Part shown: piece by piece, positions 3,216-52,215 of the stretch
Layout: every line of letters begins with the position of its first letter
Position numbering within the stretch: position 1 is the first letter of the stretch
NCBI GenBank assembly: GCA_009392195.1
Contig: VFGY01000026.1
Span: 1-64,000 of the forward strand
Direction: 5' to 3'
Source: SAR202 cluster bacterium
Lineage (GTDB): Bacteria; Chloroflexota; Dehalococcoidia; Lucifugimonadales; OSU-TB39
Length of the DNA stretch: 64,000 bases
Translations under genes and position numbers: made by a program
Notes under the pieces: model-generated
What the model saw: only the letters and a program-made list of their open reading frames with translations
Database searches by the model: none
What the model was told of the DNA's origin: nothing

Positions 3216-4403
3216 ATGAAATCATCTAACGCTTTAATAATACAATCTGGTGGAAGTACCCCTGTAATTAACCAAAGCTTAGCTGGTATTTTACGAGAAT
3301 CAAAAAAATTAGCATCTTTTACTAAAATATATGGCGCCATCCACGGCACTGATGGTTTGTTGAAAAGAAATATCACGGACTTAACTAATATAAGTAGTTT
3401 AGATATATCATCAATAGCAACTACTCCGGGTGCAGCTCTTGGGTCATCAAGATATAAAATTACGCAATCAAATGCAACTAACATATTAAATATCCTATCT
3501 GACTACAAAATAGCCTATTTATTTATAATTGGAGGGAATGATTCGGCTGCAAATGCCAAGGAACTCGGTACCCTAAGTAAAATTAGCGGATATAAACTTC
3601 AAGTTATACACGTACCAAAGACTATTGATAACGATTTAATTGGTACTGACCATTCTCCAGGTTTTGGAAGTACAGCGAGGTTTATAGCTTTAGCCACAAT
3701 GGGAGCTGGCAAAGATGCACAAACTATGGGCCAATCCGCACCAATAACAATCATAGAAGTTATGGGTAGAGACGCCGGTTGGCTTGCAGCTTCATCCTCG
3801 ATAGGAAAAAATACTTGCCAAGATCCACCTCATATAGTTTGTGTTCCAGAACATAATATCAATTATGAACATTTCCTCAATCAATTAGAAAATACTTATC
3901 GCCAGTTTGGGTATGCAGTAGCTGTTGTGGCTGAAAATTCTAAAAATGAAGAAGGTATTATTGGAAAGACAGAAAAAGCATTGTATGAGGATCAATTCGG
4001 ACATAAATATTTTGAAGGTGCTGGATACCATTTAAGCAAATTAGCTGAATCAAGACTAAAAGTAAGAGTAAGGTACGAAAAACCAGGGACGATACAAAGA
4101 TCTATGGTGTCTTGTATTTCCATCGTTGATTCCACAGAGGCTGAAATGGTTGGCACTAAAGCAGTACAATATGCACTACAAGGTGCAAATGAAGTAATGA
4201 TCTCAATAAAAAGAGACCAATTAAATTCCAAATATTCTAGCTCAACAGAACTAACTCCAGTTAAAAATGTAGCAGATAAAGTAAAATATTTACCTGCAAA
4301 CTATTTCGACAACCAAAACCTATTGCCAACCGAGGATTTCAAATCATATGCAATCCCGTTAATCGGATCTCCATTACCTATATTTGCAAACCTATTAAAA
4401 TAG
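3216..4403 (+). CDS. 6-phosphofructokinase family, likely PPi-dependent subtype
   Basis: SGGSTPVINQSLAG, IIGGNDSAANA, PKTIDNDL, GRDAGWLA, GTIQRS motifs of the PFK family; Lys in PKTIDND is a PPi-type signature. Confidence 0.85.
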   Translation: MKSSNALIIQSGGSTPVINQSLAGILRESKKLASFTKIYGAIHGTDGLLKRNITDLTNISSLDISSIATTPGAALGSSRYKITQSNATNILNILSDYKIAYLFIIGGNDSAANAKELGTLSKISGYKLQVIHVPKTIDNDLIGTDHSPGFGSTARFIALATMGAGKDAQTMGQSAPITIIEVMGRDAGWLAASSSIGKNTCQDPPHIVCVPEHNINYEHFLNQLENTYRQFGYAVAVVAENSKNEEGIIGKTEKALYEDQFGHKYFEGAGYHLSKLAESRLKVRVRYEKPGTIQRSMVSCISIVDSTEAEMVGTKAVQYALQGANEVMISIKRDQLNSKYSSSTELTPVKNVADKVKYLPANYFDNQNLLPTEDFKSYAIPLIGSPLPIFANLLK

Positions 4404-4409
4404 ATTATT

Positions 4410-5594
4410 CTAAAAAAATCTACTGAATACTTCATTGCCTAACAATCTGCCTTTTGGTGTCAACTTATATTTACCACAAGTAGGATATAACAATTTTTCC
4501 TGTATTAAATTGTTAATAGCTTCGCCAAAAACATCTTCAATATGTACTCCAAAACGTTTTTCAAATTCTACTACGTCAATACCACGTATTAACCTTAAAC
4601 CCAACATCATGGTTTCTCCCATCTCAAGCTGCTTATCAATCGGTTCAACGCTTTCAAGACTAGGTATTTGTGCTAACAAACGTTCACCATCTTCTAGATA
4701 ATCAAAATCATAAACTAATTCCCGCTGAGTTAAATATTTACTTATATAGGTATTAGGCGACTTTATATTATTGAATCTGTTTTTAAACAAATAAGAATGG
4801 GCACCCGGACCAACACCTAAAAATGGTTGATTCATCCAATATCTTAAATTATGTTGGCTTTCTTTATGAGGTTTTGACCAATTAGATATTTCATATTGTT
4901 CATACCCGTTATCGTGCAAATACTCCTCGCATAACAAGTACATATCTGCAGCTAAATCATCATCAGGATTTTCTAAGTTTCCTATATCCATCATCCGCTG
5001 CATCGGTGTGTGTTTTTCAAGAGTCAGACAATACAAAGATAAATGGTCTGGTTCCAAATCAGAAATAATCTTAAGTGAATCTTTCCAATCTTTCAAAGTC
5101 TGATAAGGTATCCCATACATTAAATCTAAACTTATATTATTAAATCCCATCTTTCTTAGTTTCTTGTACGTGTTAATTGCTGTATTCGCAGAATGAGTTC
5201 TGCCAAGAGTTTTTAATATAGAGTCTTTAAAACTCTGTACGCCTATACTAACCCTATTAATCCCCACATCCAAAAACCTTTGAACATTTGTCTCTTCTAT
5301 ATCATTTGGATTTACTTCTATGGTTATTTCTGAAATATCGCACTGGAATTTTGTTTTAACCAAATCAAGAATTGTTTTCAAGTGACCCACAGGAATATAA
5401 GAAGGAGTACCACCTCCCAAAAATATCGTTCGTACGGGGTATGATTTCAATACTGAAGACCAAAGTATTAATTCATTGCATAAAGCATCTATATAAGAGG
5501 GCATTAAATGCTCTATTTTTGTATAAGTATTAAAATCACAATACGGACATTTTGTCTGACAAAAAGGAATATGAATATATAAAGATAAATCCAA
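4410..5594 (-). CDS. hemW: HemW-like radical SAM protein (coproporphyrinogen oxidase-like heme chaperone)
   Basis: CQTKCPYCDF radical SAM cluster, FLGGGTPSYI, GVQSF, DLMYGIPYQT, SLYCLTLE. Confidence 0.85.
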   Translation of the reverse strand: MDLSLYIHIPFCQTKCPYCDFNTYTKIEHLMPSYIDALCNELILWSSVLKSYPVRTIFLGGGTPSYIPVGHLKTILDLVKTKFQCDISEITIEVNPNDIEETNVQRFLDVGINRVSIGVQSFKDSILKTLGRTHSANTAINTYKKLRKMGFNNISLDLMYGIPYQTLKDWKDSLKIISDLEPDHLSLYCLTLEKHTPMQRMMDIGNLENPDDDLAADMYLLCEEYLHDNGYEQYEISNWSKPHKESQHNLRYWMNQPFLGVGPGAHSYLFKNRFNNIKSPNTYISKYLTQRELVYDFDYLEDGERLLAQIPSLESVEPIDKQLEMGETMMLGLRLIRGIDVVEFEKRFGVHIEDVFGEAINNLIQEKLLYPTCGKYKLTPKGRLLGNEVFSRFF

Positions 5595-10608: not shown

Positions 10609-11523
10609 TCATCTCTTCATCTTAGACCTGATAGATGATTCAAAAGCAGTCATTTCCGACAATGGCTGAGTCGGCCAAGTGCGCTTCCATTCATCTGTTA
10701 CATCAACATGCAATTTAGGTCCTAGTCCATCTATTTGCATTTCAATTTTATCGCCGTCTTGAATTGGTCCTAATCCAACATGGTTTGTACCAGTTGAAAT
10801 CAGATCCCCTGGTTTCATAGTAACTAACCAAGTGGCAAATTCTACAACTTCTCCAACACTTCTTCCCATATCACTAGTGTTCATATTTTGCCTAACTACA
10901 CCATTAACCCATAAATTAATATTCAAATTTTGGGGGTCATCAATTTCGTCTGCTGTAACTATAGCAGGTCCTATTGGACCAAATGTATCCCAAGATTTTC
11001 CCCAGAAAAAACTTGATCCTCCATTAGGTTCAACACCACGCGCTGAAACATCGATAAAATTAATATATCCAAAAATATGATCTTTTGCATTAGAAGCGGA
11101 AACTTTGCTAGATTTTTTGCCTATCACCAATCCCAACTCAGCCTCATGATGAAAATGCGGTACAGGACAATCCGGCAATACCACTGTATCACCATCCCCA
11201 ATAATTGCACTCGGCGATTTCAAAAATGCCTCCCTGTCAGCTACTAGAGCGCGAGAGCCATTCTCCATATAATTACCAGCCATACACACAATTCTTGTTG
11301 GTTCAGGTAGTGGAGGCCTAAATTTCACTTGAGAAATTGGGACCGACGGTACGTCTCCTATTTCTTCTAGCGATGGTCGATATTGATCGAAATGTTCAAT
11401 CAAGTAACTCATCATTATTTGAGGACTAAAATTAGGAACTCCAGATATTTTCTCCGAAATATCAATAACTTTATCATCTCTTAAAATACCAGGAACATAA
11501 TCGTTAAAAAGAACTAATTTCAT
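10609..11523 (-). CDS. fumarylacetoacetate hydrolase-family protein
   Basis: FAH-type motifs: CMAGNYMENG, HHEAELGLVIGKK, GYINFIDVSARG, FGPIGPAIVT, GDLISTGTNHVG. Confidence 0.85.
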   Translation of the reverse strand: MKLVLFNDYVPGILRDDKVIDISEKISGVPNFSPQIMMSYLIEHFDQYRPSLEEIGDVPSVPISQVKFRPPLPEPTRIVCMAGNYMENGSRALVADREAFLKSPSAIIGDGDTVVLPDCPVPHFHHEAELGLVIGKKSSKVSASNAKDHIFGYINFIDVSARGVEPNGGSSFFWGKSWDTFGPIGPAIVTADEIDDPQNLNINLWVNGVVRQNMNTSDMGRSVGEVVEFATWLVTMKPGDLISTGTNHVGLGPIQDGDKIEMQIDGLGPKLHVDVTDEWKRTWPTQPLSEMTAFESSIRSKMKR

Positions 11524-50248: not shown

Positions 50249-50391
50249 CTCATTTGTAAATTATATCATCAGATTTACACAGACGATTTTTCTATCTATG
50301 TTCCTACTAAATAAGGGCCATATTGATAATTAAGAATATAGGGTTTATAATTCCTTTATGGACAAAATATATGAATCTATTAAATTGGTTT

Positions 50392-50546
50392 GCGCATGTA
50401 TTTGCGCCCAGGTAGAAGATAACAAAGTTATCTCCTCTGGGCCGGTGTGAACGCAATGTAGATTCTTAGAAGACTAAGATAACTACAGATACTGTTTACA
50501 GTAAATGTTTACACCCCCCCCAACTTTAAAAGGGGGGGTTTTTTTT
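50392..50546 (+). ncRNA. structured RNA or leader ending in a rho-independent terminator, upstream of the E1-like gene
   Basis: GCGCA/TGCGC hairpin (50392-50407); long hairpin GCCCAG..GATAAC-AAA-GTTATC..CTGGGC (50406-50442); stem GGTGTGAAC (50444-50452)/GTTTACACC (50507-50515) enclosing TGTAG..CTTAG-AAGA-CTAAG..CTACA (50457-50487) and TACTG-TTTA-CAGTA (50490-50503); then terminator. Confidence 0.7.
50514..50546 (+). terminator. rho-independent terminator
   Basis: C8-AACTTTAAAA-G7-T8: 7-bp all-GC stem followed by eight T; 25 nt before the E1-like start codon. Confidence 0.9.
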
Positions 50547-50571
50547 GAGGTAATTAAGGAGAACAACAAAA

Positions 50572-51390
50572 ATGACAACGAGTGCAAAAACTTTGTCCCC
50601 ATATCAAGTTCAAAGATATAGTAGACATATCATAATGCCTCAAGTAGGTAGTACTGGACAAAGAAAATTATTAAACTCTAAAGTATTAATTGTAGGAGCT
50701 GGTGGTTTAGGTTCCCCTACATCCATTTACCTTACGCTAGCAGGTGTTGGTGAAATAGGAATAGTTGATTTCGATGATGTTGACGTAACTAATCTACAAC
50801 GACAAATTCTGCATTACGATTCCGACATAGGTAGAAGCAAAGTTGAATCTGCAAAAGAAACTTTGAATTCCTATAATCCTGAAACCGAAATCACTTTATT
50901 TGAAGAACCACTAACTTCAGAAAATGCTATAGAAATAATGTCTCAATTTGATGTGATTGTAAATGGAGCAGACAATTTTGCAGCAAGATACTTAATCAAC
51001 GATGCTGCATATCTTTGTAACAAACCTCTAATAGATGGCAGCATCTTGCTTTTTGATGGGCAAGCAACAGTTTTTGTGCCAGGAAAAGGATGTTATAGAT
51101 GCCTATTCCCTGAACCTCCTCCTCCTGGAGAAGTACCAAGCTGCGCAGAAGCTGGCGTATTAGGAGTAATGCCGGGAGTTATTGGAACTATACAAGCGAC
51201 TGAAACAGTCAAATTAATAATGGGCATAGGTGATTCTTTAGTGGGAAGATTACTTCTAGTTGACGGTCTTTCTATGGAATTTAGGGTAGTTAAGACAAAA
51301 AGAAATATAGACTGCCCCCTTTGCGGTGAAAACCCTACTATTTCTGAACTAATTGACTACGAAGAGTTTTGCGGTATTCCTACAAGTTAA
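50572..51390 (+). CDS. ThiF/MoeB/HesA-family E1-like adenylyltransferase
   Basis: RYSRHIIMPQVGSTGQRKL, VLIVGAGGLGSPTSIYL, DNFAARYLINDAAY, PSCAEAGVLGVMPG, zinc CxxC pairs CYRC and CPLC; no rhodanese domain. Confidence 0.93.
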   Translation: MTTSAKTLSPYQVQRYSRHIIMPQVGSTGQRKLLNSKVLIVGAGGLGSPTSIYLTLAGVGEIGIVDFDDVDVTNLQRQILHYDSDIGRSKVESAKETLNSYNPETEITLFEEPLTSENAIEIMSQFDVIVNGADNFAARYLINDAAYLCNKPLIDGSILLFDGQATVFVPGKGCYRCLFPEPPPPGEVPSCAEAGVLGVMPGVIGTIQATETVKLIMGIGDSLVGRLLLVDGLSMEFRVVKTKRNIDCPLCGENPTISELIDYEEFCGIPTS

Positions 51391-51393
51391 CCC

Positions 51394-52215
51394 ATGTCTA
51401 ATTGGCCAATTGCTGTTACATCACGTGATACAATCGAACAGGATTTCCCTAATATCCTTGAGGAGTTAGTGGACCTGAAATGGTCAGCAGTAATAGTCAA
51501 AAACTTCTACCCAATTATACATTGTGAAGAAATCTGTCAAAGAATAAACGAGAATAAAGATGATTTAGTTACTGTAAAAGAGTATTCTAATTCAGCAGGT
51601 GATAAAGTAGCTCTTAGATATATTGGACCCGGATTAGGTCAATATGTATCAGACAAAGAAACGTATTTTTCAGAAACAAAATTAGCACATAAGAAATTCA
51701 ACAAATTATACAACGGGCTTCCTGACCCACGTGAAATGGTAAGAAATCAACTCGCCAAACTATTGCCTGGGAAAAATATTGTAGTCGCTAAAGAAAAAGA
51801 CAGAGAGTGTTCAGATTCGGTGGTTCGAATAATGGCAGATGGTGATATGAGTGCTTTGCACAGGGATAGTGCGATGAATTATTTTAAGGGATGGCAAATA
51901 TCAAACTACCCTACACAATTTTCTGCCTTGGTATGTTTTCAAATGGCTGAATCTGGTGGAGAATTGACGGTTTACAGAAAGAGATGGGTACCTGAAGACG
52001 ACCTTGTACAAGAAGAAGGTGTTACCGGATATCCCAATTCTTTGGTATCAAACTCTGAATCGAGTACAATAACTCCACAGCAAGGTGATCTTTATATATT
52101 CCATCCAGAAATATACCATGATATCAATCCTATGCAGGGTAAAACAGACAGAATAACTCAAGGAATATTTTTCGCCATCTCTAAAAATGAGAACGTAGCT
52201 GTTTCTTGGGGATAA
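51394..52215 (+). CDS. putative 2OG-Fe(II) dioxygenase-like protein
   Basis: ALHRDS (HxD) and QGDLYIFHPEIYHDINPMQGKTDRITQGIFF (distal His plus downstream Arg) fit the double-stranded beta-helix oxygenase pattern. Confidence 0.6.
   Translation: MSNWPIAVTSRDTIEQDFPNILEELVDLKWSAVIVKNFYPIIHCEEICQRINENKDDLVTVKEYSNSAGDKVALRYIGPGLGQYVSDKETYFSETKLAHKKFNKLYNGLPDPREMVRNQLAKLLPGKNIVVAKEKDRECSDSVVRIMADGDMSALHRDSAMNYFKGWQISNYPTQFSALVCFQMAESGGELTVYRKRWVPEDDLVQEEGVTGYPNSLVSNSESSTITPQQGDLYIFHPEIYHDINPMQGKTDRITQGIFFAISKNENVAVSWG

Follow-up and report, generated by a model that had tools for sequence, protein, structure and literature searches.

The DNA upstream of an E1-like gene in a SAR202 bacterium most probably (rough probability 0.85) encodes a leader-peptide transcription attenuator. 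As predicted from the sequence, it would sense charged Cys-tRNA and control the E1-like gene, probably together with the oxygenase gene behind it. The relevant features are listed below. (Positions refer to the window, the whole stretch of 64,000 nucleotides that was analysed.)

50323..50351, + strand: putative promoter TTGATA-17 nt-TATAAT (-35 at 50323-50328, -10 at 50346-50351), consensus match only
50358..50450, + strand: putative leader-peptide ORF, MDKIYESIKLVCACICAQVEDNKVISSGPV followed by the stop, 30 codons, from translation
50391..50405, + strand: three Cys codons TGC-gca-TGT-att-TGC, the proposed sensor, from the sequence
50406..50442, + strand: hairpin 1 (GCCCAG...CTGGGC), directly 3' of the Cys codons, in MFE and constrained folding
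50439..50441, + strand: GGG of hairpin 1, able to pair with the terminator C-run after hairpin 1 opens, in constrained folding
50444..50453, + strand: 5' arm of the three-way-junction stem (proposed antiterminator), holding the leader stop codon, in MFE and constrained folding
50457..50487, + strand: first inner hairpin of the three-way junction, in MFE and constrained folding
50490..50503, + strand: second inner hairpin of the three-way junction, in MFE and constrained folding
50506..50515, + strand: 3' arm of the three-way-junction stem, sharing C50514-50515 with the terminator, in MFE and constrained folding
50514..50546, + strand: intrinsic terminator with C8 (50514-50521), G7 (50532-50538) and T8 (50539-50546), from the sequence
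50556..50561, + strand: Shine-Dalgarno sequence AAGGAG of the E1 gene, from the sequence
50572..51390, + strand: E1-like adenylyltransferase gene (ThiF/MoeB/MoeZ family), the proposed regulated gene, PF00899 2.2e-81
51394..52215, + strand: WelO5-like Fe(II)/2-oxoglutarate oxygenase gene, PF22814 9.9e-31, beginning 3 nt past the E1 stop

A putative leader ORF with clustered Cys codons

The original prediction had placed the start of the element at 50392 and had overlooked the 30-codon ORF at 50358-50450; with this ORF included, the predicted start moves to about 50358. The promoter TTGATA-17-TATAAT matches the consensus in 11 of 12 positions, and ranked first among 25 promoter-like sites found on either strand in the surrounding 6 kb. 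It is much better than the TGGACA...TTAAAT sequence proposed before, a weak match (9/12) whose TGGACA lies within ATGGACAAA, the start of the short leader ORF. The ATG at 50358 is located 6 nt past the -10 hexamer and coincides with the predicted transcription start (leaderless). The short ORF occupies the 5' end of the leader and has clustered codons of a single amino acid, Cys accounting for three of the five codons in the cluster. The stretch 50392-50407, previously described as a 5-bp hairpin, is the Cys-codon sequence TGCGCATGTATTTGCGCC; the supposed hairpin shares two bases with the next one, and the MFE structure contains it only in part. The second hairpin of that description is likewise coding sequence of the leader ORF, and the TGA stop codon (50448-50450) sits within the 5' arm of the three-way-junction stem. 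Judging by these sequence features, transcription of the window copy would start near 50358, the ORF would be translated and the response would have the direction proposed below.

A working terminator would yield a terminated RNA of ~189 nt anyway, as expected of a standalone small RNA with its 3' end at the terminator, or of a terminated but unregulated 5' leader carrying an ORF by chance. However, when the 320 nt preceding the E1 gene were shuffled 2000 times, a CxCxC ORF arose twice, and a leaderless Cys ORF is found again in front of E1 genes of relatives (see below). Both of these origins are regarded as extremely unlikely.

Recurrence upstream of E1 orthologs

A DNA search of the organism's genome and of 58 relatives from the same order found no homologue of the exact element. 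Lack of conservation beyond the strain had been named in the original prediction as an argument against the element. It was found for the exact sequence, but such a lack is expected for a leader-peptide attenuator, and thus the attenuator reading stands. Since the exact DNA had no match, the comparison was shifted to the orthologs of the E1 gene. These were collected from 80 loci identified by protein search, nearly all belonging to Chloroflexota of SAR202/Dehalococcoidia, and from 230 of 250 genomes of the order. Altogether 142, later 160, distinct upstream regions were compared; the relatives are non-independent samples, and the controls were drawn from the same sequences.

Short ORFs with the C.C pattern were present in 40 of the 142 upstream regions (shuffle mean 12.6, maximum 18; reverse strand 10). 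A Cys-cluster ORF combined with an intrinsic terminator before the gene, as in the window, was found in 30/142; shuffles had 1-2 such cases, the reverse strand had 1, and among 605 upstream regions of other genes from the same loci there were 3. The hits covered at least ten family-level groups (f1, f4, f6, f11, f28, f30, f34, f36, f37, f41) plus L042/L060 and L051. The leaderless layout, in which TATA[ACT]T precedes the start codon by 6-9 nt, occurred in 16 of 160 regions, in 15 of these at 6-7 nt; each of 20 shuffled sets contained 0 or 1 such case and the reverse strand 0. In other groups the -10 sequence lies tens of nucleotides ahead of the Cys ORF. Judged by this spacing, a leaderless start is common, not universal, among the Cys leaders. 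The layout consisting of a Cys ORF plus terminator is firmly supported by these counts.

Among the 142 upstream regions, most E1 orthologs had no detected Cys leader, and a Rfam search of 20 such loci revealed no known riboswitch. Cys ORFs in L012, L016, L120 and L149 were set aside as likely false, having no terminator or a promoter located after the ORF. In L150, L213 and L025 a Cys-containing frame (RLCRCQAVACAQ) stops 24 nt before the E1 start, and the terminator is absent. A start codon is not evident after the -10 sequence, and the frame may represent a translational variant or a chance frame. Scanning of the own genome for leaderless Cys leaders gave 59 pattern matches versus 34 with the reversed pattern; beyond the window's own leader these included a handful of in-frame candidates, which almost always began with a codon other than ATG.

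In keeping with the original prediction, in which the RNA could not be matched to TPP, T-box, 6S, SRP, tmRNA or RNase P, the Rfam search at gathering score returned only two tRNAs elsewhere in the window. In the element region nothing meaningful was obtained at E values up to 10: PyrR, Trp_leader, Phe_leader and GcvB merely mirror the terminator. Dense structure, a three-way junction and a terminator would also be expected of a metabolite-binding riboswitch, recognizing a sulfur compound or a cofactor within the 155 nt. Apart from the lack of a Rfam match, however, half of the RNA is coding, and a conserved aptamer is absent at the orthologous positions, whereas Cys ORFs recur. Because the recurring unit is a Cys ORF with a terminator, without conserved aptamer sequence or fold, the element is most probably an attenuator, and a riboswitch is given scarcely any probability. 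Of the possibilities offered originally, the attenuator, suggested by competition between the closing stem and the terminator, was retained; the new riboswitch and the standalone small RNA found no support in view of the recurring Cys-codon leader ORF.

In the leaders the Cys residues are kept while the codon used (TGC or TGT), the neighbouring residues and the RNA sequence vary, and sequences of different groups cannot be aligned. Recurring motifs of the peptides are CTCPxT, TCSCRN and CxCCS, and some peptides were found repeatedly in different genera: CTCP[YHQP]T followed by the stop, EDCTC, SC[LF]CCST and FC[ML]CC...GHLI. Examples are:

MYKSVSAIGCSCKTYQRG; ..KLTCSCRN; ..NICCCRRSVEL
Pair: MICKASCLCCSTKYQVV / MICIASCFCCSTQHQVV
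Pair: ..EDCTCTRRSA / ..EDCTCMRRSS
Set: ..SRCTCPYT / ..RACTCPHT / ..NNCTCPQT / ..FDCTCPPT
Pair: ..FFCMCCNVTYDGHLI / ..KFCLCCSATYEGHLI

The second Cys codon was TGT in every CxC leader listed, whatever the G+C content, and the first varied between TGC and TGT.

In the ORFs upstream of E1 genes CxC spacing is favoured over CC or C..C, as it would be in a metal- or redox-binding motif. Cys-rich upstream ORFs related to copper provide a precedent for nascent peptides that sense a metal or redox signal themselves, here by arresting the ribosome. Such a role is nevertheless considered very unlikely: several groups (L148, L154, L209-L211) carry CC or CCC in place of CxC, the remainder of the peptide is unconserved between groups, and the regulated gene is linked to cysteine synthase, not to copper genes.

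Predicted switching between terminator and antiterminator

The segment 50380-50560 folded with -59.8 kcal/mol, compared with -40.7 +/- 3.9 for shuffled sequences (z = -4.94; none of 200 shuffles equalled it). The dense structure and strong terminator of the original prediction were thus reproduced: the long hairpin, the closing stem, the two inner hairpins and the C/G-T8 terminator were all present in the MFE structure, and the closing stem and the terminator do share C50514-50515.

When a ribosome was placed on the RNA as a constraint, folding of the window yielded two alternative states. With the ribosome at the stop codon no junction stem formed, and all seven G residues of the terminator paired with the C-run (P 0.99-1.00). 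With the ribosome at the third Cys codon the hairpin 50406-50442 was lost. In this stalled state, before the G-run was transcribed, the GGG at 50439-50441 and the junction stem held part of the C-run (P 0.98-1.00), with P 0.99-1.00 for the pairing of the GGG itself. At equilibrium the stalled state reduced two basal terminator pairs to P 0.08-0.47, and the junction stem could coexist with 5-6 inner C-G pairs of the terminator. Because these inner pairs persist at equilibrium, antitermination in the window would require kinetics or the loss of the basal pairs.

These states suggest the following mechanism. RNA polymerase would start at about 50358, and a ribosome would load at once on the ATG at the RNA 5' end. 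If Cys-tRNA is ample, the ribosome would reach the stop codon at 50448-50450 in the 5' arm of the junction and block the junction stem. The C-run would then be free to form the full C8/G7-T8 hairpin, and transcription would end. If Cys-tRNA is scarce, the ribosome would stall at TGC-TGT-TGC and open the hairpin 50406-50442; a halt at the second or third Cys codon would have this effect. Opening would make both the GGG at 50439-50441 and the arm of the junction available. The junction stem, lengthened by GGG:CCC pairing, would capture the C-run before the G-run is made, allowing the polymerase to read into the E1 gene.

In the relatives the cleanest switch was seen in L042/L060, where GGGCATT at the ORF end base-pairs with AATGCCC in the terminator arm except when a terminating ribosome sits on GGGCATT; sequestration of the terminator arm was 0.67-0.68 in the stalled state and 0.00-0.19 at the stop. 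The same type of switch was observed in L009, L089 and L113. Over all loci tested the terminator arm was sequestered to 0.57 in the stalled state versus 0.30 at the stop codon. With shuffled linkers the stalled-state value was 0.49, and several groups were no better than their shuffled linkers. Folding of the loci of group f34 gave no convincing antiterminator. A segment at and just after the stop codon pairs with the Cys codons and those that follow them in L039 and L225-L227 (e.g. CCGC/GCGG, CCCC/GGGG), by different yet matching bases in each, the compensation being judged by eye; among these loci L039 alone has a clear antiterminator. In the last 150 nt before the E1 gene of L148, L153, L154, L172 and L209-L211 a TCGAAC-like segment at the leader stop matches a GTTCGA just before the terminator, and the match persists across differing flanks. 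This pairing resembles an antiterminator but scarcely overlaps the terminator stem. The detailed switching, as modelled by folding, appears to be well supported in some groups, and plausible in the window.

All folded states allow the inner terminator stem to form, as would be expected if the leader ORF sensed Cys but acted through translation of the E1 gene, reinitiation by the ribosome or Rho, with the terminator as a bystander. The mycobacterial Cys leaders point the same way: they have no terminators (PMC1262725), and two further papers (PMC9031893, PMC13236596) report them as translation attenuators, citing Canestrari et al. 2020. Yet at least 30 loci, many more than expected by chance, have a strong T-run terminator separating the leader from the gene, and the pairing options target the terminator arm, not the Shine-Dalgarno sequence of the E1 gene. 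Control without participation of the terminator is therefore thought unlikely, and transcription attenuation remains the preferred reading.

The E1-like gene and comparison with known systems

The ThiF/MoeB-like assignment of the downstream gene, part of the original prediction, was borne out by the PF00899 match, and the best NCBIfam matches of the protein were MoeB/MoeZ/UbaA. The oxygenase gene is likely to be co-transcribed with it; none of the 80 related loci had an oxygenase neighbour like that of the window behind the E1 gene. Among 77 relatives the E1 gene was directly followed by a cysteine synthase (cysKM) gene in 49 and by a rhodanese gene in seven, and was preceded by a gene of a Rrf2-type regulator in 33. 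The adjacent cysteine synthase gene is missing in the window, where the neighbour is the oxygenase, and in its closest relatives. The E1 gene is thus assigned to cysteine metabolism through the 49/77 relatives, and since the window and its closest relatives have no adjacent cysteine synthase, the window copy would share this role by orthology. The mycobacterial MoeZ, an E1 enzyme of the same type, sulfurates MoaD as well as CysO, the carrier protein of cysteine synthesis (PMC3227635).

Outside the window, the organism's genome contains genes for three ThiS-like carriers, a single Prok-JAB protein and two cysKM-like enzymes; no Cys leader was found upstream of one of the cysKM genes (L173). The genes of the Prok-JAB protein (4283-4606, - strand) and of a ThiS-like carrier (10942-11157, + strand) lie ~6 kb apart on contig C43, and these two proteins are candidate partners of the E1 enzyme, corresponding to Mec/CysO. 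Among loci L022-L082, E1 genes that adjoin those of a Rrf2 regulator and cysteine synthase were mostly without a detected Cys leader. In the lineages nearest to the window Cys leaders are present and an adjacent Rrf2 gene is absent. The Rrf2 regulator and the Cys leader may substitute for one another as controls.

In the literature searched, cysteine-specific leader peptides were described only for Actinobacteria, and there without terminators. No publication describing a terminator-linked Cys attenuator, or a Cys attenuator of any kind in Chloroflexota, was found in a search that covered few subscription papers and is weak evidence to that extent; a terminator-coupled Cys leader in Chloroflexota looks new. 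If the proposal is true, it provides a testable amino-acid control element for SAR202, abundant uncultured ocean bacteria, in at least ten family-level groups, and marks the E1-like enzyme as a step of cysteine biosynthesis in SAR202. It would also give a reason why covariance-model searches overlook such elements: peptide and layout are retained, the RNA sequence is not. A wider proposal, tentative and rather more doubtful than probable, is that terminator-coupled, often leaderless Cys attenuators are a main cysteine sensor of SAR202/Dehalococcoidia. They would have arisen independently of the actinobacterial ones, and would act on E1 so that sulfur-carrier charging (for cysteine, possibly molybdopterin and thiamine) tracks the charging of Cys-tRNA.

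T-box and S-box (SAM) riboswitches resemble the element in controlling cysteine/methionine genes by means of a terminator, but the T-box senses uncharged tRNA and the S-box senses SAM directly, and the element matches no Rfam model. Cys leader peptides without a conserved terminator hairpin were predicted in Actinobacteria (2005, PMC1262725), and leaderless Cys-responsive translation attenuators of mycobacteria were described by Canestrari et al. 2020, as cited in PMC9031893, PMC13236596 and PMC9094748. The likeness to the mycobacterial polycysteine leaderless sORF is considerable: a short ORF with clustered Cys codons, located upstream of cysteine/sulfur genes, and a leaderless start, here predicted with 6 nt between the -10 sequence and the ATG. 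Unlike the actinobacterial leaders, which have no terminator and in mycobacteria are reported to act by translation attenuation, the SAR202 leaders are often accompanied by a strong intrinsic terminator; they occur in Chloroflexota, and the first gene behind them encodes an E1-like activator. From the trp, his, ilv and leu attenuators the element differs in the amino acid that would be sensed, cysteine, in the predicted leaderless start, in the proposed three-way-junction antiterminator of the window and in not being represented in Rfam, but it has in common with them the codons of the end product in the leader ORF, predicted alternative stems, an intrinsic terminator and a biosynthesis gene downstream.
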